Origin: Salinigranum rubrum
GTDB lineage: Archaea > Halobacteriota > Halobacteria > Halobacteriales > Haloferacaceae
DNA length: 64,000 bases
Direction: 5' to 3'
Assembly: GCF_002906575.1 (NCBI RefSeq)
Contig: NZ_CP026309.1
Span: 2,232,001-2,296,000 of the forward strand
The position numbers were made by a program, and so were the translations under genes. Below the pieces are notes generated by a model. It saw only the letters and a program-made list of their open reading frames with translations. It was not told where the DNA came from and did not search any database. Shown here piece by piece: positions 3,610 to 35,188 of the stretch (its first letter is position 1; the number at the start of each line of letters is the position of its first letter).

Positions 3610-4086
3610 GTTCGTCGGACAAAGGGAGGTCCCCGCAAGGCGTCTCTCCCCCCGTTCGAACGCGGCGGGATGGGCATCTCCACCGCGTTCAAGAGTGCCG
3701 ACCGTTCGGACGATTCTCGTCCGTCCGGAAGCCGGGTGATTCCGGTGGTCGACTGGTCAGAGGCACCCCGGCGTACGTTCGTACCACGCAAGGGGACTTT
3801 ACCTCATTCCCTGTGCCATCGGTCAGTATGTGGAACCACATATATAAATAGTTCGAATATTTAAATATAAAAACGCTTGTCGTTCCTCACCGACGAACAG
3901 ATGAGTAAATGACACGTCGTGACGAGCGGTCGTTAGGACGGTCTCATCGACAGCGAGTGCCCGACGAGCCGCGTTCCGCAGGGACGAACGTAACGTCCGC
4001 TCTCGTCGACGCCCCGTCCGACGAGAGTGCACCGGGTCGTCGGCAGTCCGGGCGTCGGTCGTCGGTTCACACGTGAATACAGGTTT
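3610..4086. other. Non-coding region with AT-rich palindromic island
   Basis: No convincing coding sequence was seen on either strand; long open frames here are GC-driven antisense frames. The stretch contains an AT-rich island at 3827-3872 in otherwise very GC-rich DNA. It includes an inverted repeat TATGTGG-AA-CCACATA (3827-3842), a TATATAAATA element just after it, and a perfect 12-bp palindrome ATATTTAAATAT (3857-3868). The island looks like a promoter/operator, but the next gene starts more than 200 bp downstream, and the only ORF directly after it is four codons long (ATG AGT AAA TGA at 3901-3912). A small RNA or a long leader is possible. Confidence 0.5.
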
Positions 4087-4683
4087 ATGACGAGCGACGC
4101 CACAGTACGCGTACGAGATGGCTCCCCCGGGAACCGAGACAGGAACGAGCACGGCCAGTTCGCCGACCGCATCCCGCCGGAGGAGGCGCTCGCGGTGTTC
4201 GAGGCACGCGAGGACCGTGCCCGTCCAGTGACGGCCGGCGACGTCGCCGACGCGCTCGACTGTTCGCGGCGGACGGCGCACAACAAGCTGGGCGAACTCA
4301 CCGACCGGGGCGTCGTCCGAACGCGGAAGGTCGGCGCGCGCAGTCGTGTCTGGTGGATACCGATCGAAGGCGACGACGCGGAGGCGCCCGACCCGTCCCG
4401 CAGTCACGCGGTCACGGACGCGGCCCACGACGCCGAACTGCCGGGCACCGGGGAGATTCTCGAACGGCGTCGACGGGCCCTCCTCGCGGCGTACGACTAC
4501 CTGAGCGAGCATCCGGAGGCGAAGAAAGCGGACTTCCTGCGCGACGTCTTCCCCGAGCACCGCGCGGAGTTCGAGTCGGCGGAGGGGTGGTGGAACGCGA
4601 TACAGCCCGCGCTGCGCGAACTCCCCGGTGTCGACCCGCCGAAGGAGCGCGGGCACATCTGGCACTACCTCGGCGGGGACTGA
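4087..4683 (+). CDS. Two-domain winged-helix (HTH) regulator, haloarchaeal type
   Basis: 198 residues from the ATG at 4087. Residues ~20-85 form a winged helix: NEHGQFADRIPPEEALAVF followed by VTAGDVADALDCSRRTAHNKL (recognition helix) and a GVVRTRKVGARSRVWW wing. A second domain (~118-198, from EILERRRRALLAAYDYL to GHIWHYLG) has the helix-rich pattern often attached to this HTH type in haloarchaeal accessory and provirus genes. It probably binds DNA; targets are unknown. It precedes the Nramp-like operon by 152 bp in the same direction and is the obvious candidate local regulator. An upstream in-frame start near 4027 exists, but the ATG with the conserved core is preferred. Confidence 0.75.
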   Translation: MTSDATVRVRDGSPGNRDRNEHGQFADRIPPEEALAVFEAREDRARPVTAGDVADALDCSRRTAHNKLGELTDRGVVRTRKVGARSRVWWIPIEGDDAEAPDPSRSHAVTDAAHDAELPGTGEILERRRRALLAAYDYLSEHPEAKKADFLRDVFPEHRAEFESAEGWWNAIQPALRELPGVDPPKERGHIWHYLGGD

Positions 4684-4835
4684 GCGGACTGCGGCGGCCG
4701 GGTACCGGCCGACCGGAGGACAGCGTCGAGGGCAATCGGTCCCGATACCCACAGACGAGAGGGGGCCGAGACGTACAGATTTATGTCGCTCGCACGGCCC
4801 GGTTGAGGTGTCGTAGCGACACCACAGACGGTGCT

Positions 4836-6542
4836 ATGGACTCACGAGAACCGCCCGGCGACGCCGCCGACGACGACGAGCCCGACGTCTACGCGTCCGA
4901 GGTCGAAGGCCGCCAGTACCGCGGAACGTCGTACATGCCGATGCCGTACGACGACCTCACCGAGGCACCCGACGCGGACGAGTACCCCGACCGCGGCGAG
5001 GGCGGGTCGTTCAAGCTCCTCGATCTCCCCCGCGTACCGAAGCTGAGCCACGTCGTCGGCCCCTCGGCCATCATGCTCGGGGCGAGTCTCGGGAGCGGCG
5101 AGACGGTCTTCTGGCCCATCCTCATCGCGCAGGGCGGGTGGGCGCTCTACTGGGCGTTCTGGATCGGCGTCCTCACCCAGTTCTTCGTCAACACGGAGCT
5201 CCAGCGCTGGACCGTCGCCACGGGCGAGAGCGTCTTCCGAGCGTTCGACCGCGTGAGTCGGTTCTGGCCGCTGTTCTTTCTGCTCGCGGGGTTCGTGAGC
5301 CTCGGCTGGCCCGGATGGGCGGCCGGCGCCGCGCAGGTCGGGGCGTGGGCCGTCGGGATCGGTGACTGGAAACCGCTCGGTATCGGGCTCATGCTGCTCA
5401 TCTTCGTCTCCTACCAGCTTTCGCCCGTCATGTACAACGTCGTCGAGGGCGCCCAGTTCGTCCTCGTCGTCGTCTCGGTCCTCTGTGCGGTCGCGCTCGC
5501 GGTCGTGACCGGGTCGACGGACCAGCTCGCGAACCTCCCGGCCGGCGCCCTCTCTCTCGGGACGATTCCCGCGGGGACGGACCTCGCGGTCTTCCTCGGC
5601 GGCCTCGCGTTCGCCGGCGCGGGCGGCTACCTCAACCTCTCGCAGTCGCTGTGGGTCCGCGAGAAGGGCTACGGCATGGGCAACTACCAGGGTCGGCTGA
5701 AGAACCCGCTCATCGGCGACGAACCCGAGCCCGTTCAGGAAGACGGGTTCACGTTCGAGCCGACGGAGGAGAACCTCCTCCGCTGGCGGGGGTGGTGGCG
5801 GGTCGTCCAGCTCGAACACCTCCTGACGTTCGTCGTCGGCCTGCTCGTCGTGGCGACGGTGTTGATGACGGTCGCCGCGAAGTTCGCGGCCGGGACGAGC
5901 GTCGAAGGCATCGACATGTGGCTCCAGGTCGTCGTCCCCCAGTTGTCCGGGGCGGGCGCGGCGCTCGTCCCGCTCGTGCTGTTCGTCGCGCTCTTCACCA
6001 CCGAGTACGCCATCGTCGAGTCGTTCGTCCGCAACAGCGCCGACATCGTCTACGAGACCCACGGCCGGCAGGCCGGCTGGTCGCTGCCGACCATCTTCCT
6101 CGTCACCCTCACGGCCTTCACCCTCTGGGGCGTCGTCATCATCCTCCTCCCCTTCGAGCAGCCGTTCTTCCTGCTCGTCGTCGGCGCGGCGATGTCGGGC
6201 GTGATGATGTGGCCCTACATCGCGCTCACGCTCGTCATCAACACCACCCGGCTCCCCGCTCACCTCCAGCCCGGTTGGATCCGCGTCGTGGCGATGTGGT
6301 GGGCGACGGGCTTCTTCGGCTACTTCAGCACGCTCCTCGTCGGACGGACGCTCGCGCGGGACTTCGGCGTCGCCGTCTTCGCGACGGCCCCCGAAATCGT
6401 CGGAAGCGCCCCCGGTGGCTACGTGCTCTGGCTCGGCTACCTCGTCGTGCAGACGTACACGGTCGCGGTGAGCCTCCGCGCGAAACGACGCGGCGCCGAG
6501 GGTTTCCACGGAGCCGAAGTCGACCGCGGGTGGCTCTCGTGA
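4836..6542 (+). CDS. Nramp-related transporter lacking the classical metal-binding motifs
   Basis: 568 residues: an acidic, proline-rich soluble N-terminus of ~75 residues, then about 11 hydrophobic helices. The first helix reads GPSAIMLGASLGSGETVFWP, where the canonical Nramp DPGN motif is replaced by LGSGE. The helix corresponding to Nramp TM6 (GGLAFAGAGGYLNLSQSLW) has no MPH motif. Nramp-related proteins of this kind are usually annotated as divalent metal transporters, but the metal ligands (Asp/Asn and Met) are not evident, so the substrate is open. The stop overlaps the GTG start of the next gene (GTGA), indicating translational coupling. The ATG at 4836 was chosen because the preceding in-frame sequence is not conserved-looking. 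Family fairly sure; substrate unknown. Confidence 0.75.
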   Translation: MDSREPPGDAADDDEPDVYASEVEGRQYRGTSYMPMPYDDLTEAPDADEYPDRGEGGSFKLLDLPRVPKLSHVVGPSAIMLGASLGSGETVFWPILIAQGGWALYWAFWIGVLTQFFVNTELQRWTVATGESVFRAFDRVSRFWPLFFLLAGFVSLGWPGWAAGAAQVGAWAVGIGDWKPLGIGLMLLIFVSYQLSPVMYNVVEGAQFVLVVVSVLCAVALAVVTGSTDQLANLPAGALSLGTIPAGTDLAVFLGGLAFAGAGGYLNLSQSLWVREKGYGMGNYQGRLKNPLIGDEPEPVQEDGFTFEPTEENLLRWRGWWRVVQLEHLLTFVVGLLVVATVLMTVAAKFAAGTSVEGIDMWLQVVVPQLSGAGAALVPLVLFVALFTTEYAIVESFVRNSADIVYETHGRQAGWSLPTIFLVTLTAFTLWGVVIILLPFEQPFFLLVVGAAMSGVMMWPYIALTLVINTTRLPAHLQPGWIRVVAMWWATGFFGYFSTLLVGRTLARDFGVAVFATAPEIVGSAPGGYVLWLGYLVVQTYTVAVSLRAKRRGAEGFHGAEVDRGWLS

Positions 6543-7723: not shown

Positions 7724-10700
7724 TCAGGCGACGACGGCCGCCAGCTTCTCGACCGGGTGGGGCGGCTCCTCGCCCTCGTGGTCGCCGAGTTGTGACCGAC
7801 AGGAGGCGCCGGGCGCGACCACCGTGTCGCCGTCGCTCGCGTCCACCTGGTCGTAGAGGATGGAGGCGATGGCCTTCGACATCGAGTAGTGTTCGGCCTC
7901 GTAGCCGAACGAGCCAGCCATCCCACAGCAGGTCGAGTCGAGCGGGTCGACGTCGTACCCGACCCGTCCCAGCACCGACACGGTGTGGTGGTCCTTGTTC
8001 GTCGACTTCTGGTGGCAGTGGCCGTGGTACGTCAGCGACTCCTCCCTCCGCTGGAACTCGCGGTCGCCGAACAGGTCGAACGTGTCGACGTACTCCATCA
8101 CGCCGTAGCTGTTCGCGGCGAACGTCTCCACCTCGGGTCCCGAGAGCAAGTCGAGGTAGTCCGACTGGAACATCACGGCGTCGGACGGTTCGACGACGAC
8201 GACGTCCCAGCCCGCTTCGACGTTCGGAACCAGCGTCTCGACGTTCTGCTCGGCCTCGGCGCGCGCCCTGTCGAGGAAGCCCTTCGAGTGTGGCGGGCGA
8301 CCGCTGCCGGCGACGTCGTCGGGAATCCGAACGTGGACGCCGGCGGCTTCGAGCGCCCGCACCGCGGCCTTCCCCGCTTCGGGGTGGTTGTAGGTGGTGT
8401 AGGTGTCGGGGAAGAGCAGGGCTCGACGGACCGCCTCGCTCTCGTCGACGGTCGACCCGCCGCGCGCCTCGAACCACTCGGTCAGGGACTGGGAGGCGAA
8501 CGAGGGCAGCGTCCGCTCGGAGGCGATGCCCAGCGTCTTCTCCATGACCCACCCCGACCCCGGGAGTTTCGTCGCGAGGTTCGACAGCGGAGCGAGCGAA
8601 CTGCCCACGCTGGAGAGGCTGTCGATGTTGGCGAACATCCTGTCTCTGAGACTCGAACCGTTGCGCTGGTGGTACTCGTGGGTCACCTCGGCTTTCATCT
8701 TCGCCATGTCGACCTCGCTCGGACAGTCCTTGGTACAGCCCTTACAGCCGATACAGAGGTCGAGCACCTCGTGGACGAACTCGTCGGTGAACATCTCCTC
8801 CTCGTCGAACGACCCGGACATCGCCTGCCGGAGCATGTTCGCCCGGCCGCGGGTGGACTGTATCTCCTCTTCGGCCGCGCGGAACGTGGGACACATCACG
8901 CCGCCGGTCGTCTCCTGTGGCCCACGACAGCCCGCACAGCCGTGACAGAGTTCGGCCATCCCCTGGAAGCCGTTGTCGTTGTCCCAGTTCAGCGACGGCT
9001 CGAACCCCTCCTCGAACTCGTAATCCGGGGAGAACCGGAGGTGTTCGGTCATGTCGTGGTCGCCGCAGATGTTTCCGGGGTTGAGGAGCCAGTCGGGGTC
9101 GTACGCGGACTTCAGGTCCCGAAACACCCCCCAGAGGTGGTCGCCGTAGAGCTTCCGGTTCCACTGGGTCCGGGCGCGGCCGTCGCCGTGCTCGCCCGAG
9201 ACGCTGCCGCCGTACTTCACGACGAGGTCCGTCACCTCGTCCGCGATGGCCTCGAACGTCTCCAGCCCCTCGACCGTCTTGGTGTTGACGAGCGGCCGGA
9301 TGTGCAACACCCCGGGGCCGGCGTGGGCGTAGTAGCTCGCGAACGTGTCGTGCTTCTCGAGGATGTCCTGGAAGTCGGAGACGTACGCCGGGAGGTTCTC
9401 CGCGGGGATGGCGGTGTCCTCGATGTAGGCGATGTGCTTCTCGTCCGTGGTCCGCCCGAGCAGGATGGGGAGGCCGGACTTGCGCATCTTCCAGAACTTC
9501 GCGCGCGTCTCCGCGTCGTGAGCTTCCATCGACCCGACCGCCGTGTGTGGCTTGTCGGTCGTCTCCACGGCAGCCACGGAGGGTTCGACCTGGCTGTCTC
9601 CGTCGGTGACCCGGTCGGCGATGAGGTCTGCGACCTGCTCTTTACCGTGCTGGTCGTCATCGGCGTAGAACTCCACGAGCAAGACGGCGCTCGTCCCCTC
9701 GGGGAGCATCCCGACGACGCCGCGGAACTCCGCGGTCTCTCGGGCGAGGTCGAGGAGGACGTCGTCCATCACCTCGACGGCCGCCGGGTCGTGTTCGAGG
9801 ATGGGCGCGACGTCCTCCATCGCGTCGACGACGCTGTCGTAGGTGAGGAGGGCGACGCTCGCCGTGTTCGGGATGGGTTCGAGCGAGACGGTCGCCTCGG
9901 TGACGATGGCTAACGTCCCCTCGCTCCCCGCGAGCAGGCGGGCGAGGTTGACCGTGCCCGCCTCCGCATCCGGGTCGAGTCCCTTGTCGTCGGGCGTCCG
10001 TCGCTCGCCTCGGGCCTCGTCGACGAGCATGTCGAGGTTGTACCCCGAGACGTTCCGCTTGAGTTCGGGGTACCGCTCTTCGACCTCCTCTGCCTCCTCG
10101 TCGAGGATGCGGACCACCTGGGCGTACACCCGGGGGAGTATGTCGTCGCTGTCGGGGTCGGCGCGGGCGCGGAGTTCCTCGACCTCGACCTCGCCGAAGC
10201 GTTCGACGCTCCCGTCGGCGAGGACGGCCTCACACTCCTCGATGTAGTAGTCGGTCTTGCCGTACTTCAGCGAGTGCGCGCCGGTGGAGTTGTTGCCGAT
10301 GGCCCCGCCGAGCGCGCTCTTGTCGCCCCAGGCGGGGTCGGGCGCGAACTTCAGCCCGTGCGGTTTCAACTCGCGGTTGAGGTCGCCGAGGTACGTCCCG
10401 GCCTCCGCCCGGGCCGTCGCCGCGTCGGGGTCGACGTCCACGACCGAGTCCATGTAGCGCGTGAAGTCGAGGACGACCGCCTCGTTCACGGTCTGTCCCG
10501 CCAGCGACGTGCCGCCGCCGCGGGGGAGGACGGGAATCTCACGGCGAGCGCAGTACTGCACCACCGCGGCGACGTCGTCGGTCGACGTCGGCATCACCAC
10601 GCCGATGGGCGTCCGTTCGTACGCGGACGCGTCGGTCGCGTACAGTTCCCTCGTGTAGGTGTCGAAGCGAACGTCGCCGTCGACCAGTCCTTCGAGGTCG

Positions 10701-10804
10701 TCGACGAGCGCCGGGCGGGCGACGTCGTCCGAGACGTAGTCGAAGTTCGCCCCGTCACGTGGGTCGTCGGCCCGCGACCCCAGGTCGTCCGTGTTGCTTG
10801 CCAT
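7724..10804 (-). CDS. FAD-linked oxidase / Fe-S / CCG-domain fusion (D-lactate or glycolate dehydrogenase type)
   Basis: 1026 residues combining GlcD- and GlcF-like parts. The N-terminal FAD-binding (PCMH) domain includes PTSTDDVAAVVQYC (~70) and the PRGGGTSLAGQ loop (~95-105). An FAD-oxidase C domain follows to about residue 560. The Fe-S region has CHGCAGCRG (~618) with a later Cys, and CIGCKGCTKDCP (~682). The C-terminal CCG domain has YHGHCHQK and STCCGMAGSFGYEAEHY (~956). Such fusions oxidise D-lactate or glycolate and pass electrons to the membrane quinone pool. The permease upstream and the lut genes nearby favour D-lactate. A small acidic gene follows after 3 bp. Its Fe-S/CCG module closely resembles that of the LutB fusion at 13861-16083. 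Confidence 0.88.
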   Translation of the reverse strand: MASNTDDLGSRADDPRDGANFDYVSDDVARPALVDDLEGLVDGDVRFDTYTRELYATDASAYERTPIGVVMPTSTDDVAAVVQYCARREIPVLPRGGGTSLAGQTVNEAVVLDFTRYMDSVVDVDPDAATARAEAGTYLGDLNRELKPHGLKFAPDPAWGDKSALGGAIGNNSTGAHSLKYGKTDYYIEECEAVLADGSVERFGEVEVEELRARADPDSDDILPRVYAQVVRILDEEAEEVEERYPELKRNVSGYNLDMLVDEARGERRTPDDKGLDPDAEAGTVNLARLLAGSEGTLAIVTEATVSLEPIPNTASVALLTYDSVVDAMEDVAPILEHDPAAVEVMDDVLLDLARETAEFRGVVGMLPEGTSAVLLVEFYADDDQHGKEQVADLIADRVTDGDSQVEPSVAAVETTDKPHTAVGSMEAHDAETRAKFWKMRKSGLPILLGRTTDEKHIAYIEDTAIPAENLPAYVSDFQDILEKHDTFASYYAHAGPGVLHIRPLVNTKTVEGLETFEAIADEVTDLVVKYGGSVSGEHGDGRARTQWNRKLYGDHLWGVFRDLKSAYDPDWLLNPGNICGDHDMTEHLRFSPDYEFEEGFEPSLNWDNDNGFQGMAELCHGCAGCRGPQETTGGVMCPTFRAAEEEIQSTRGRANMLRQAMSGSFDEEEMFTDEFVHEVLDLCIGCKGCTKDCPSEVDMAKMKAEVTHEYHQRNGSSLRDRMFANIDSLSSVGSSLAPLSNLATKLPGSGWVMEKTLGIASERTLPSFASQSLTEWFEARGGSTVDESEAVRRALLFPDTYTTYNHPEAGKAAVRALEAAGVHVRIPDDVAGSGRPPHSKGFLDRARAEAEQNVETLVPNVEAGWDVVVVEPSDAVMFQSDYLDLLSGPEVETFAANSYGVMEYVDTFDLFGDREFQRREESLTYHGHCHQKSTNKDHHTVSVLGRVGYDVDPLDSTCCGMAGSFGYEAEHYSMSKAIASILYDQVDASDGDTVVAPGASCRSQLGDHEGEEPPHPVEKLAAVVA

Positions 10805-10992: not shown

Positions 10993-12726
10993 TCAGAAGA
11001 CGCCCGGGAAGAGGACGTAGCTGAACAGCAGCGTCACGAGGCCGGTGGCGGTCCCGTAGTAGACGAGCGGGATGAGTTCCAGCCGGATGACGCGACCCTC
11101 CTCGCCGACGAGGCCGACGACGGCCAGCGCCGCGACGACGTTGTGGATGGCGATGAGGTTGCCGATGGCGCCGCCGACGGCCTGTGCGGCCAGCATCAGC
11201 GTCCGCGGCGTCCCGATCTGGTCGGCGACGCCGTACTGGAACGTGCCGAAGAGGATGTCCGACACGGTGTTCGACCCGGCGAGGAACGCCCCGAACGCGC
11301 CGACGTACGCGGCGAAGAACGGGTAGACGCCGCCCGCGACCGAGGCCATGCCGTCCGAGAGGACGATGAGCATGCTGTCGGTCCCCGTCGCGGAGCCCGA
11401 CTGCAGCATGATCTGGACCGTCGCCACCGCGAACAGCAGGGCGACGACCGCGGGCATCACCTTCTCGACCGTCTCGGACCACGCCGCCGTGATCTCGTCG
11501 GTCCGCATGTCGTGCAGCGGGATGGTGAGCAGGTGGACCGCGACGAACACCGCCCCCGGCAGGTAGAGGACGGCGAAACTGTCGCTCAGTCCCGTCCCGA
11601 GGATGTCGGTCCACGCGAGCGTGAACAGGTCCATCGTGACGAACGCGTTCACGGGGTCGACGACGCGGGTGACGACGAGGAGAACGGCGACGAGCGCGTA
11701 GGGCGTCCACGCCTTCCACAGCGGCATCCGGACGTGCCCGCCGTCGGCCGTCACCGTCCCCTCGCGGGAGGTGCCCGCGCCGACGCCGCCCTCGCCGGGC
11801 TGGATGTCGCCGACCCAGTGGTCGGGCCACTGCTCCTGAGGCGCGAAGTCCCACTCGTCGTCGGGGTGGAAGAAGCCGGCCTTCAGCGCACCGACGGTGA
11901 CGAACAGGCCGACCATCGCCCCGATGAGGCCGGGGAACTCCGGCCCGAGGAAGTACGCCGTGAGCCAGTACGGGACCGAGAAGGAGGCCCACGCGAACAG
12001 CGTGAGCGGGAGGACCTCCAGCGCGGGCTTGATCGAGCGTTCCTCGCCGAAGAAGCGGGTCATCATCGCCACGCCGATGAAGGGCAGTGCGACGCCGACG
12101 ATGACGTGGTACGTCGCGGCCCACATCGCAATGTCGCCGACCCACGCGGCGACGCTCGCGTACGGGCCGTTCGCGACCACCGCGGTCTGGATGCTCTCGA
12201 CGGAGCCGAAGATGTCGATCATCCCGATGATGAGCGGCGTCCCGACCGCGCCGAACGTGATGGCCATCAGGTTCCCCGTGAGCGCGACGACGACGGCCGC
12301 CATCGGCGGGAAACCGAGCCCCACGAGGAGCGGACCGACGATGGCCGCGGGCGTCCCGAAGCCGGCCGCGGCCTCGATGAACGACCCCATCAAGAATACG
12401 AGCAGGACGACCTGAACGCGGCGGTCCTCGCTCACGGAGGCGAAGCCCTGATTGATGGCGTCGAAGGCGCCCGTGCGTTTCAGCGTGTAGAGGAGGAGGA
12501 TGGCGCCGAAGACGATGTAGAGGATGTTCGCGGCGGTGATAAAGCCGACAATCGACGACGCGGCGATCCACCGCGCGGACATTCCCCAGCCGACGACGCC
12601 CGCGCCGACCGCGACGAGCCAGGCGACGGGCATCGCCCGCGTCGCGGGCCAGTACCGGCCGACCATCAGGAACGCGATGGTCGCCAGCGGCGCGAGCGCG
12701 ACGAGCGCGTCCACGGCGCTAACCAT
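10993..12726 (-). CDS. lctP: L-lactate permease family transporter
   Basis: 577 residues, hydrophobic throughout with roughly 12-14 membrane helices. The family pattern is clear in [20 protein letters not shown] near residues 65-85, and in [26 protein letters not shown] and [18 protein letters not shown], the conserved GFGTP and GTP segments of the LctP/LldP lactate permeases. A cytoplasmic loop ([20 protein letters not shown]) separates the halves. It imports lactate or glycolate with protons. A GTG at 12735 is in frame, but the ATG at 12726 is preferred. Upstream are a TATA-like element and a 9-bp inverted repeat. It precedes the dehydrogenase fusion on the same strand and diverges from the lut genes. 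Confidence 0.88.
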
Positions 12727-12764
12727 CGGTCTCACCTCGGTCGATACGTCTCGAACCGCCCCGA

Positions 12765-12833: not shown

Positions 12834-13012
12834 ATCGCTTCTCCCCCGATTGCGAGAACTCGGACGGTCAGCGGCGGACCTCTCTCGATACCTGTTCGTT
12901 CGAGTGTTGTGGATAACATGCCTCAGAGACCGGCTCAAAACCGTTATTCTCTGCTGCAGTAATTCTCACGGCGTCGGCGACGACGCACGTCAGCCGCTAC
13001 CGGCGTCCCTCT

Positions 13013-13067
13013 ACACACGTGTGTTCTATCCAGTGTACACGTGTATACACGCCTCTATACACGTGTG
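13013..13067. promoter_or_regulatory. Three ACACGTGT palindromes at 22-bp spacing (candidate operator array)
   Basis: Three copies of the palindrome ACACGTGT occur at 13015-13022, 13037-13044 and 13059-13066, centre to centre exactly 22 bp apart (two helical turns). Copy one extends to the 12-bp palindrome ACACACGTGTGT and copy two to TACACGTGTA. The array ends 6 bp before a TATTTAA box (13073-13079) on the plus strand, the usual place for an activator site in archaea. It sits mid-way between the divergent lactate permease and lutC, so it could control either or both. The regulator is not encoded in the neighbourhood. Confidence 0.65.
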
Positions 13068-13072
13068 AACAG

Positions 13073-13144
13073 TATTTAATCACTCTAAACGACGAGCTGA
13101 AAGGGAGTCTAAACGGCGAGAAGAGCGTATTTCGACCTATTTCG
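13073..13144 (+). promoter_or_regulatory. TATA box and two sets of direct repeats upstream of lutC
   Basis: TATTTAA at 13073-13079 follows the palindrome array. Downstream are a 13-bp direct repeat TCTAAACGRCGAG (13084-13096 and 13108-13120, 24 bp apart, one mismatch) and a 7-bp repeat TATTTCG (13128-13134 and 13138-13144, one helical turn apart). The lutC ATG is about 260 bp further on, so transcription from this TATA would have a long leader. No gene was found between 12727 and 13364 on either strand. RBS-like GGTGA precedes the lutC ATG. Confidence 0.5.
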
Positions 13145-13364
13145 GCGCGTTATCCGTGGACGGACGGTGCCACGTGGCCGTCGACGCCAGCGCGCGGGCG
13201 TCTCACGGACCGCGAGCGCGTTCGAAACCCGGGTCGCGCGCGTCCGATACGTCGGGTCGTCCGCGCTCCTCCTGTCGGTTTTCGTCGCCGTTCGGGGCCG
13301 GTCGTGACCCGGCGATGGACGGCCGAAAGCAAAGAAACTTGAAACCCCTGTCGTAAGGTGACAC

Positions 13365-13868
13365 ATGGCGACTGGCACGGTCACGACGTTCGAGGCGTCA
13401 CTGGACCGCCTCGACGTCGACTGGACGCATACGACGCACGACGGGTTGGCGGACGTTCTCCGGGAGGTGTCGACGGAGCCGGCGGTGGGCACGCCGCTCC
13501 CGTTCGACGTCTCCCTGCCCGCGTGGGTGAACACGGAGCCGACCCCGGACGAACTGGAGACGGCGACGACGGGTATCACCGCCGCCGGACTCGGTATCGC
13601 GGACTACGGGAGCGTCGTCCTCCCGTCGACGCCCGAGGGGACCGAACCGGTGTCGCTCTTCCCCGACCTCCACGTCGCCGTCCTCCGGACCGGGGACGTC
13701 GTTCCGGGGATGGCCGAGGCGTTCGACTTCCTGGGTGAGGAGTTCCGCGACGGCACCCACTCGTCGGCGATTATCGCGACCGGTCCGAGCGCGACGGCCG
13801 ACATGGGGGCGCTGGTGAAGGGTGCACACGGCCCGAAAGACGTCCACGTGGTGATGCTCGATGAGTAA
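13365..13868 (+). CDS. lutC: LUD-domain protein, LutC-like lactate utilisation subunit
   Basis: 167 residues forming one LUD domain. Signature pieces are a beta strand and helix ending in ITAAGLGIADYGSVVLPSTPEG, the LFPDLHVAVLRTGDVVPGMAEAF core and TGPSATADMGALVKGAHGPKDVHVVML, the typical LUD C-terminal segment. In Bacillus, LutC works with LutA and LutB to oxidise L-lactate to pyruvate through Fe-S proteins. The start has a GGTGA sequence 6 nt upstream. Its last codons overlap the start of the LutB fusion (13861) by 8 bp, showing translational coupling. No oddity in length for archaeal LutC. Confidence 0.88.
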   Translation: MATGTVTTFEASLDRLDVDWTHTTHDGLADVLREVSTEPAVGTPLPFDVSLPAWVNTEPTPDELETATTGITAAGLGIADYGSVVLPSTPEGTEPVSLFPDLHVAVLRTGDVVPGMAEAFDFLGEEFRDGTHSSAIIATGPSATADMGALVKGAHGPKDVHVVMLDE

Positions 13869-16083
13869 GAGCACGTCCCGAGAGGCGAAGGCCGCACGCA
13901 TCCGCTATCTCCTCGAAACCGAGGGCGACGCGGTCAAAGCCAACACGAAGGGCTTCAATCAGGGCCGGTACGACTCCGTCGCGAAACTGGAGTCGTACGA
14001 GGAACTCCGCGCCCGTGCCCGCGAAATAAAAGCGGACGCCATCGACCGCCTGCCGGAACTCCTCGACCGGGTGGAAGCGACGGTCGAGGCCAACGGCGGC
14101 ACGGTCTACTTCGCCGACGACGCCGCGGACGCCAACCGCTACGTCCGGGAGGTCTGCCGGGACAAGGAGGCCGAGCGCGTCGTGAAGTCGAAGTCGATGA
14201 CCTCCGAGGAAATCGAGGTGAACGAGTTCTTGGAGGAAGACGGCGTGGACGTCGTCGAGACAGACCTCGGCGAGTGGGTGTTGCAGGTCGCCGACGAGGC
14301 CCCCTCCCACATCGTCGCCCCTGCCATCCACAAGTCCCGCGAGGGCATCGCAGAGCTGTTCAACGAGACGTTCCAGCCCGAAGAGAAACTCGAAACCGCG
14401 GAGGAACTGACGATGTTCGCCCGCGAGCGACTGCTCGAAGAGATCAAAGGCGCGGACGTCGGCATGACCGGGGCGAACTTCATCACCGCCGACACCGGGA
14501 CCCTGGCGCTCGTCACGAGCGAGGGCAACGCCCGGAAGTCGGCGGTGGTTCCGGACACCCACGTCGCCGTCGCGGGCGTCGAGAAGGTGGTTCCCTCGGT
14601 CGAAAGCCTCCAGCCGTTCGTCGAACTCATCGGTCGTTCCGGGACGGGACAGGACATCACCTCGTACATCTCGCTGCTGACGCCGCCCGTCGAGTCGCCG
14701 GTCGTCGACTTCGACGCGTCCGACACGCCGCTCGCGAGCGGAGAGAACGACCGCGACTTCCACCTCGTCCTCATCGACAACGGCCGGATGGCGATGCGCG
14801 AGGACAGCGAGTTGAAAGAGACGCTGTACTGCATCCGGTGTTCGGCGTGTTCGAACGTCTGTGCGAACTTCCAGTCGGTGGGAGGGCACGGCTTCGGCGG
14901 CGAGACGTACTCGGGGGGAATCGCCACCGGGTGGGAGGCCGGCATCGAAGGGCTCGACACGGCCGCGGAGTTCAACGACCTCTGTACGGGCTGTTCGCGC
15001 TGTGTCGACGCCTGCCCCGTCAACATCGACATCCCGTGGATCAACACGGTCGTGAGGGATAGAATCAACCGCGGGACCGACCACGAGTTCGACTGGCTCG
15101 TCGACGGGCTGACCCCCGACGCCGAGGAGGGAGGGCTCAGCCTGCAGAAGCGGTTCTTCGGCAACTTCTCGACGGTGGCGACGGTCGGCAGCGCCCTCGC
15201 GCCGCTGTCGAACTGGGTCGCCGGGACCGACCTCTCCCGGCGGCTGATGGAGTCGACCATCGGCGTCGACGCCCGCCGCGACCTCCCGTCGTTCGAGCGG
15301 GAGACGCTCGTCGACTGGTTCGCGGCACGGGGGCCGCGGGTCTCACCGACCGAGGCCGAGCGCGAGGCCGTCGTCTACCCCGACGTCTACACCAACCACG
15401 CGATGGTCGAGCGCGGGAAGGCCGCCGTGCGGGCGCTCGAAGCGCTCGGCGTCCACGTCCGCGTCCCCGACCTCCCCGCGTCGGGCCGCGCGCCGCTCTC
15501 GCAGGGGATGATCACGACGGCCGAGGAGAAGGCCCACGCCCTCTACGCCGCGCTCGCGGAACACATCGACGCCGAGCGCGACGTCGTCGTCATCGAACCG
15601 TCGGACCTCGCGATGTTCGACCGCGAGTACGGGAAGTTCCTCGCCCCGAGGTCCCAGGAGCGGCTCTCGGATGCGAGCTACGAGGTGATGGAGTACGTCT
15701 ACGGTCTGCTGGAGAACGGCGGCGACCCGAAAACGCTCCGCGCTCCCGGCGCGAACGACAGCGGGGTCGCGTACCACTCACACTGCCAGCAACGAACCCT
15801 GGGGCTGGAAGGCTACACGGAAGCGGTCCTCGACCGTCTCGGCTACGACGTCGCCACCTCGGAGGTCGAGTGCTGTGGGATGGCCGGGTCGTTCGGCTAC
15901 AAGTCCGAGTACTACGAACTCTCGATGGACGTCGGGAGCGAACTCGAAGCGCAGTTCTCCACGCCGGAGACGCGCGAGCGCCGCGTCGTCGCCTCCGGGA
16001 CGTCGTGTCTGGAACAGCTCGACTCGATGTTGGCACGACCGTCACAGCATCCGGTCGAACTCGTCGCGCCCGAGCGGCTCTGA
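13861..16083 (+). CDS. lutB: LutB-type LUD/Fe-S protein fused to LutA-like CCG domain
   Basis: 740 residues. The LUD domain spans roughly 60-310 (for example VGMTGANFITADTGTLALVTSEGN at ~200-223). Two Fe-S cysteine groups follow: CIRCSACSNVC (324-334) and CTGCSRCVDACP (375-386). The C-terminal part is a CCG domain with HSHCQQRT (~640) and VECCGMAGSFGYKSEYY (~671), a function done by separate LutA in bacteria. It should oxidise L-lactate with LutC and deliver electrons to the respiratory chain. The tail after the Fe-S clusters matches the tail of the FAD dehydrogenase at 7724-10804 segment by segment. The next gene begins 73 bp downstream. Confidence 0.88.
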   Translation: MSKSTSREAKAARIRYLLETEGDAVKANTKGFNQGRYDSVAKLESYEELRARAREIKADAIDRLPELLDRVEATVEANGGTVYFADDAADANRYVREVCRDKEAERVVKSKSMTSEEIEVNEFLEEDGVDVVETDLGEWVLQVADEAPSHIVAPAIHKSREGIAELFNETFQPEEKLETAEELTMFARERLLEEIKGADVGMTGANFITADTGTLALVTSEGNARKSAVVPDTHVAVAGVEKVVPSVESLQPFVELIGRSGTGQDITSYISLLTPPVESPVVDFDASDTPLASGENDRDFHLVLIDNGRMAMREDSELKETLYCIRCSACSNVCANFQSVGGHGFGGETYSGGIATGWEAGIEGLDTAAEFNDLCTGCSRCVDACPVNIDIPWINTVVRDRINRGTDHEFDWLVDGLTPDAEEGGLSLQKRFFGNFSTVATVGSALAPLSNWVAGTDLSRRLMESTIGVDARRDLPSFERETLVDWFAARGPRVSPTEAEREAVVYPDVYTNHAMVERGKAAVRALEALGVHVRVPDLPASGRAPLSQGMITTAEEKAHALYAALAEHIDAERDVVVIEPSDLAMFDREYGKFLAPRSQERLSDASYEVMEYVYGLLENGGDPKTLRAPGANDSGVAYHSHCQQRTLGLEGYTEAVLDRLGYDVATSEVECCGMAGSFGYKSEYYELSMDVGSELEAQFSTPETRERRVVASGTSCLEQLDSMLARPSQHPVELVAPERL

Positions 16084-34570: not shown

Positions 34571-35188
34571 TCACCAGCACTCGACGACCAGTCCACCGCG
34601 GCGGAGCCCTCGTTCGGAGACGAGATACGAGGACTCGAACGGCCAGTGACCCGCCGGGAGCGGCGTCACCGTGGGCGTCTCGGGTGTGGACGACCCCGGA
34701 CCGGCGTCGCCGGTGATGTGCGTCGATGCCTGCCCGCTCACGACGACGGAGACGAGTCGTGGCTCCGCCTCGGACTCGACGGTCACCTGGCTCTCGGCGA
34801 CGTGAACCGAGAGACCGTTGAGTCGACCGATCTTTCGCGGGTTGTCCGCGAGGTGCCGGTTGTACTGGTAGGCCGTCTCGTACGCCTCCACGAACGTCCG
34901 GACGCTCGACGTGGCCAGGTCGTCCGGTGCCGCCGGGTACGCGCGAGGCGACGTCGCGGCGTCGGTCGGTCGTGGCACTTCGGCGGCGGTGCAGTCGTCA
35001 GAAATCGTCACCGTGGGGTCGTCGGCCGTTGCGGTCTGCCGGGCCGTCTCGACCGTCGTACAGTCGGTCTCTGCTGTTGACGGTCGCTCCGTGGCAGCCC
35101 CCTGGTCGCCACCGAGACAACTGGCGAGGCCGCTCGGACTCAGGGCGGCGAGCGAACGCACCACGTCACGGCGGGAGGGCTGTCGCAT
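34571..35188 (-). CDS. Putative Tat-exported lipoprotein of unknown function
   Basis: 205 residues from the ATG at 35188. The N-terminus has twin arginines (SRRDVVRSLAAL, residues 5-16) and a lipobox-like LASC with Cys24, typical of haloarchaeal Tat lipoproteins. A Thr/Ala-rich linker (~30-85) is followed by a small domain containing SSVRTFVEAYETAYQYNRHLADNP and strands QVTVESEAEPRLVSVVVSG and HWPFESSYLVSERGL. No catalytic motif seen. The GTG-type extension upstream to 35308 is rejected because it is not signal-like. Anchored outside the membrane by inference. Confidence 0.65.
   Translation of the reverse strand: MRQPSRRDVVRSLAALSPSGLASCLGGDQGAATERPSTAETDCTTVETARQTATADDPTVTISDDCTAAEVPRPTDAATSPRAYPAAPDDLATSSVRTFVEAYETAYQYNRHLADNPRKIGRLNGLSVHVAESQVTVESEAEPRLVSVVVSGQASTHITGDAGPGSSTPETPTVTPLPAGHWPFESSYLVSERGLRRGGLVVECW

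Follow-up and report, generated by a model that had tools for sequence, protein, structure and literature searches.

Three short palindromes between the divergent lctP and lutC genes of the haloarchaeon Salinigranum rubrum are quite likely the operator array of HTH5, a winged-helix protein that would be devoted to controlling lctP-dld, lutCB, and the operon in which it is itself encoded, probably as a repressor relieved by lactate. Together, the array and HTH5 very probably make up an undescribed lactate gene switch. The window, as the term is used here, is the whole 64-kb stretch of DNA that was analyzed.

Gene Cluster and Palindromic Array

The original prediction had placed three evenly spaced 8-bp palindromes between a lactate permease gene and the divergent lutC/lutB genes, and the Pfam identities of the neighboring genes bear out this location, with dld coming after lctP. 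The genes concerned are listed below.

4087–4683, plus strand: HTH5, candidate cognate regulator, with a winged helix and a predicted winged-helix-like C-terminal domain; start codon uncertain
4836–6542, plus strand: Nramp-like transporter (NCBIfam NF037982, 283.5 bits against a cut-off of 50; gene order)
7724–10804, minus strand: dld, FAD/Fe-S fused 2-hydroxyacid (D-lactate type) dehydrogenase (Pfam FAD-oxidase_C, FAD_binding_4, Fer4_8, CCG)
10993–12735, minus strand: lctP, L-lactate permease (Pfam PF02652, E 4e-100)
13365–13868, plus strand: lutC, LUD-domain protein (Pfam PF02589)
13861–16083, plus strand: lutB-like LUD/Fe-S protein of the LdhH/LutB type (profile matches)

As predicted, ACACGTGT occurs in exactly three copies within the window (13015–13022, 13037–13044, and 13059–13066), 22 bp from center to center, and TATTTAA follows from 13073 onward, 6 bases past the last core. 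The site itself turned out to be larger than an 8-bp palindrome. Alignment of the sites across lctP upstream regions of the family gives a 22-bp palindromic unit, CCNNTWCACWCGWGTGWANNGG, and such units abut every 21–22 bp. The array accordingly extends beyond the stretch first described, its full units spanning 13008–13073, and further units lie at 12891–12912 and 4062–4083. In the following list, each pair of scores gives first the family-trained matrix and then the matrix trained outside the family.

4062–4083, no strand: HTH5 promoter unit, TCGGTTCACACGTGAATACAGG, directly adjoining the TATA-like GTTTAT (18.4 / 15.6 bits)
12891–12912, no strand: fourth, weaker unit on the lctP side, CCTGTTCGTTCGAGTGTTGTGG, separated from the array by 117 bp (15.7 / 13.2 bits)
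13008–13029, no strand: array unit 1, CCTCTACACACGTGTGTTCTAT, containing the first of the three predicted palindromes (19.1 / 16.4 bits)
13030–13051, no strand: array unit 2, CCAGTGTACACGTGTATACACG (22.1 / 19.2 bits)
13052–13073, no strand: array unit 3, CCTCTATACACGTGTGAACAGT (22.8 / 20.1 bits)
13073–13079, plus strand: lutC-side TATA-like box (TATTTAA), read from the sequence, with a putative promoter role; the lutC ATG is 286 nt downstream

By count alone, three copies of ACACGTGT in 64 kb are unremarkable, as 12% of shuffled windows contain at least three. However, among the palindromic 8-mers of the window, ACACGTGT alone recurs three times at a constant interval (spacings of 8–59 bp were tested). 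The 629-bp lctP-lutC intergenic region holds four sites of at least 15 bits according to the 22-bp matrix, whereas 2000 Markov-2 simulations of this region gave no site in 1989 cases and one site in 11; the matrix used for this comparison had seen the region, but these sites are also recovered by a matrix for which other families alone supplied the training set.

The edge of unit 3 touches the TATTTAA box, so that this unit covers the expected BRE position, and GAACAGTAT at this box is kept in three of the four Salinigranum species. A separate block, AAGC(C)AAAG(G)AA..TT, lies approximately 20–40 nt before lutC (window positions ~13335–13352) and is conserved in all four species; if this block is the true core promoter of lutC, as it may be, TATTTAA at 13073 would have a lesser part to play.

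Conservation of the Array and Co-Occurrence with HTH5

Orthologues of lctP were gathered from 148 genomes of the family and their upstream regions were inspected. Copies of ACWCGWGT at 21–22 bp steps are found in most close lctP orthologues, and the iterated 22-bp matrix finds 3–5 units in most HTH5-bearing loci. The typical layout, present in most relatives, consists of abutting units at 21–22 bp and one unit that lies 75–130 bp nearer lctP. Nearest-neighbor gaps peak at 20–23 bp, a range that takes in 39 of 69 gaps within the family and 28 of 40 outside it, with more at 42–43 bp. In G002, a close relative whose units are degenerate and include no exact ACACGTGT copy, the register is still maintained. 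Outside the family, in loci collected by a public-genome scan for HTH5, the family-trained matrix finds arrays beside lutC, lctP, or HTH5, including five units at 21–22 bp in Natrinema gelatinilyticum (L147), and a matrix trained only outside the family recovers exactly the five units of the window plus one weak hit at 34986. The test proposed with the original prediction, conservation of a two-turn-spaced array before lactate-gene orthologues, therefore came out in its favor in relatives of several haloarchaeal families. Exact-pattern searching for core pairs in the 148 genomes gave matches chiefly at the lactate locus, the others being scattered; the exact two-copy pattern with mismatches in 60 relatives gave mostly scattered matches, some of them at lct or HTH5 promoters.

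The presence of sites follows that of HTH5. With the outside-family matrix, lctP promoter sites are found in 26 of 27 family genomes that have HTH5 and in none of the 14 that lack it (Fisher value 4e-10, which is overstated since the genomes share ancestry). With the family matrix, the corresponding figures outside the family are five of six and none of 10, a count that leaves aside G202 (partial HTH5 match, no sites) and G295 (frame-broken HTH5, two sites). Three genomes (G010, G060, and G224) keep the divergent lctP/lutC layout, yet have neither HTH5 nor sites, and two others (G086 and G338) have HTH5 relatives and no site at the lctP tested, G086 having an HTH5-promoter site. In G295 (L208), the frame-broken HTH5 gene adjoins lctP and two weaker sites are left, a possible case of joint decay of regulator and array.

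Position of the HTH5 Gene and Its Own Promoter

Genes were called in 40 neighborhoods of about 20 kb each. Most relatives have the order lutB, lutC, Nramp-like gene, HTH5, array, lctP, dld, and HTH5 also adjoins the array in other haloarchaeal families. The original prediction remarked that no regulator gene is next to the array; this is true of the window itself, but not of most relatives. In Salinigranum, HTH5 and the Nramp-like gene have been relocated beyond dld to the far end of the cluster (window positions 4087–6542), and this displacement explains why no regulator had been noticed.

The displaced HTH5 genes still have their promoter site, as seen in four Salinigranum species, in L083, L085, and L087 from other genera, and in Natrialbaceae loci; AGGTTTAT at the HTH5 promoter, where units end, is kept in all four Salinigranum species. 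In family members other than Salinigranum, the TATA-like box of HTH5 (CTTATA) forms the beginning of one unit, which extends toward the start codon, and the expected BRE (GCAAAGG) is covered by the next unit. By gene order and sites, then, HTH5 is linked to its targets and has an operator in common with them, as a local autoregulated regulator would. At window positions 4087–4140, the HTH5 ATG that matches relatives (4118) is shifted by one base from the HTH5 reading frame, and the in-frame ATG (4087) falls within the TATA-like box. This discrepancy could stem from a frameshift, from an error in the assembly, or from use of another start codon.

Genome-wide scanning was carried out with consensus patterns allowing mismatches rather than with the matrix. 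At up to three mismatches to the consensus, the whole genome of the window has 12 places, four of them at this locus, against five for the reversed control, and across 13 HTH5 genomes at up to two mismatches, 22 of 29 places are at the lct/HTH5 locus. Because there are so few sites elsewhere in the genomes, HTH5 looks like a dedicated local regulator. A scan for the 14-bp core with up to two mismatches gave 55 places in the genome versus 17 for the reversed control, and single near-perfect cores lie elsewhere on G000:C1 at 14375, 342050, 1641129, and 2176604; such lone cores may be sites of a different regulator that recognizes a similar sequence.

The units, their spacing and conservation, the co-occurrence with HTH5, the HTH5-promoter sites, and the scarcity of other genomic sites were all computed here.

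Structural Features of HTH5 and the Nramp-Like Protein

HTH5 is an uncharacterized protein of approximately 190 residues with an N-terminal winged helix, in which CSRRTAHNKL is invariant in the recognition-helix region and the wing is conserved, and a C-terminal domain of approximately 85 residues. Against HTH_20 (PF12840, an ArsR-like winged helix; cut-off 27), the window HTH5 scores 27.7 bits and two relatives score 24.3 and 21.5 bits. HTH5 falls outside the IclR family (HTH_IclR 20.5 bits against a cut-off of 22, and no ligand-binding domain), the TrmB family (PF01978 14.5 bits against 25.6), and the FilR1/HVO_A0261 type (HVO_A0261 N-terminal model 24.5 bits against 35, and no FilR1 middle domain), and neither a GntR HTH nor an FCD domain is among its Pfam hits up to E = 1.

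The C-terminal domain matched no family among Pfam and NCBIfam models. Predicted alone (mean pLDDT 85, pTM 0.77), it consists of three helices and a short hairpin, and the model suggests a domain built in the manner of a winged helix; the best matches in a fold search were cullin winged-helix domains (TM ~0.65–0.74), with non-significant E-values. The whole HTH5 model retrieved generic winged helices only, sequence searches of the PDB, run with HTH5 as well as with its alignment, returned nothing significant, and no sensor domain was recognized by Pfam/NCBIfam and fold searches.

The Nramp-like gene comes after HTH5 in most family relatives. In the first helix of its product, GSGE stands where the canonical metal-binding DPGN is expected. 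In addition, among loci L142–L172, a second lctP occupies the place of the Nramp-like gene in loci of the Natrialbaceae type, and Halomicroarcula (L170) has the Nramp-like gene together with dld and lutCB and without lctP. On account of these three features, the Nramp-like protein may be a transporter of lactate or another hydroxyacid.

The Probable Orthologous Locus in Haloferax

The orthologous locus in Haloferax seems to be HVO_1692–1697, in which HVO_1695 may, by its numbering, be HTH5. In an endA knock-down, HVO_1696 is up by log2 7.0 and HVO_1697 by 4.1, the two forming an operon (PMC7714728), and this rise fits strong regulation of lctP. Normal growth on rhamnose, a substrate that yields lactate, depends on the lutB/lutC pair, HVO_1692 and HVO_1693 (PMC8305020). 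HVO_1695 has been labeled a putative iron-sulfur protein and is lower in iron starvation (PMC11349517); the label is ill-suited to a winged-helix protein with one conserved cysteine.

Proposed Mechanism and Alternative Explanations

HTH5 binding, cooperativity, repression, and the ligand are what we infer from these patterns. The simplest reading is that an HTH5 dimer would occupy each 22-bp CCNNTWCACWCGWGTGWANNGG unit. Because the palindromes abut at two helical turns, cooperative binding is plausible: dimers bound to units 21–22 bp apart would all face the same side of the DNA, where they could contact one another, and the array could then fill cooperatively, in the manner of a switch. The array would serve the divergent lctP-dld and lutC-lutB operons, with a separate unit on the lctP side and another at the HTH5 promoter, and HTH5 would thereby repress lactate uptake, lactate oxidation, and itself until the repression is lifted by lactate or a related 2-hydroxyacid. 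Looping between the lctP-side unit and the array was considered and rejected; the gaps of 75–130 bp are not on one helical phase, and no loop is claimed.

Repression with autorepression is somewhat favored over activation or dual action, since, in family members other than Salinigranum, units over the HTH5 TATA-to-start region and the BRE should block initiation. In Salinigranum itself, the lutC-side and HTH5-side units end at the upstream edge of TATA-like boxes, and because this is the activating position for Haloferax OxsR, the sign is uncertain and the lean toward repression a modest one. A less probable but still realistic account is that HTH5 binds the array as an activator, or as activator or repressor depending on the promoter, recruiting TBP/TFB when lactate is present. 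The Salinigranum sites, ending exactly at TATA-like boxes on the upstream side, would suit it, as in Haloferax an upstream OxsR site goes with activation and a downstream one with repression (PMC9426492), and the rise of HVO_1696 means that lctP can increase strongly (PMC7714728). However, in the remaining members of the family the unit covering the HTH5 TATA-to-start region is in a blocking position, as is the lctP-side unit, which in several loci lies near or just after the expected start.

Lactate is proposed as the signal on the basis of the identity of the target genes. Sites of HTH5 without a nearby lctP (L145, L148, and L164) would lead one to think that the signal may not be lactate itself, and a doubtful alternative is that the regulator senses a metal, iron status, or redox state, the lactate genes being iron-sulfur-rich targets. 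HTH5 is paired with the Nramp-like transporter, including in those genomes without a nearby lctP; iron-uptake genes rise along with lctP in the endA knock-down (PMC7714728); and HVO_1695, by numbering maybe HTH5, falls in iron starvation (PMC11349517). However, Natrialbaceae-type HTH5 is flanked by two lctP genes with no Nramp-like gene, and the Nramp-like protein has GSGE in place of the canonical metal motif.

That another regulator uses the array is very improbable. A FilR1/HVO_A0261-type protein, HTH10, is present in the cluster beyond dld in 12 of 41 loci (L070, L073–L075, L077–L082, L095, and L096), but arrays exist with no HTH10 nearby in the window and in L061–L069, L071, L072, and L076, and HTH10 occurs without arrays in L081, L082, L095, and L096; it was rejected on this distribution. 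A global factor would be expected to have many sites, and few exist. Finally, it is hardly credible that the palindromes are chance or a selfish repeat without a regulatory role: three copies of ACACGTGT in 64 kb are not rare and many units are degenerate, but position, spacing, and sequence are conserved across families and sites occur in none of 24 lctP promoters without HTH5, and this explanation was rejected on the equal-spacing and simulation tests and the co-occurrence with HTH5.

Returning to HTH5 as the lactate-responsive regulator, a more detailed picture can be drawn, although as a whole it is unlikely to be right. HTH5 would found an archaeal regulator family in which each chain contains two winged helices and lacks a distinct sensor domain; two chains would bind each unit, with the second winged helix on the outer CC/GG letters; gapless tiling of dimers would form a short filament dissolved by a 2-hydroxyacid; and the Nramp-like protein would transport lactate and not metal.

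Relation to Known Regulators

Regulators that act locally, control their own genes, and use operator arrays form an already known type. Bacterial LldR/LutR proteins, which belong to the GntR family (FadR type), control lactate permease and LutABC-type or FAD lactate dehydrogenases via palindromic operators. HTH5 would control the same functions through palindromic operators, but is unrelated, as it has no GntR or FCD domain, and its operator differs. OxsR of Haloferax volcanii, a TrmB-type single winged helix, resembles HTH5 in being a small winged-helix regulator from haloarchaea whose palindromic motif lies close to BRE/TATA (PMC9426492); however, it differs from HTH5 in sequence family, motif, and targets, being a thiol-based stress regulator with many targets. 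Proteins of the HVO_A0261_N/FilR1 type have an N-terminal winged helix broadly like that of HTH5 (a weak match), whereas HTH5 lacks their FilR1 middle domain and its C-terminal domain belongs to no Pfam/NCBIfam family. No description of a haloarchaeal lactate regulator, or of this motif, was found in the open literature searched, and as far as that literature goes, the HTH5 regulator family, its operator, and the candidate switch for haloarchaeal lactate use are new.

Because a single gene is matched to a defined operator, the question can be put directly to the test in Haloferax. In addition, a dedicated multi-copy operator of natural origin, with its units spaced at two helical turns, would be useful for studies of cooperative regulation on archaeal BRE/TATA promoters, and the array could possibly be used as an inducible promoter. 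Extra HTH5 copies distant from lctP are also seen, at G023:C3:54998-55543 and in L124/L168 (G148:C6), and in L168 three weak sites lie upstream of the HTH5 copy.
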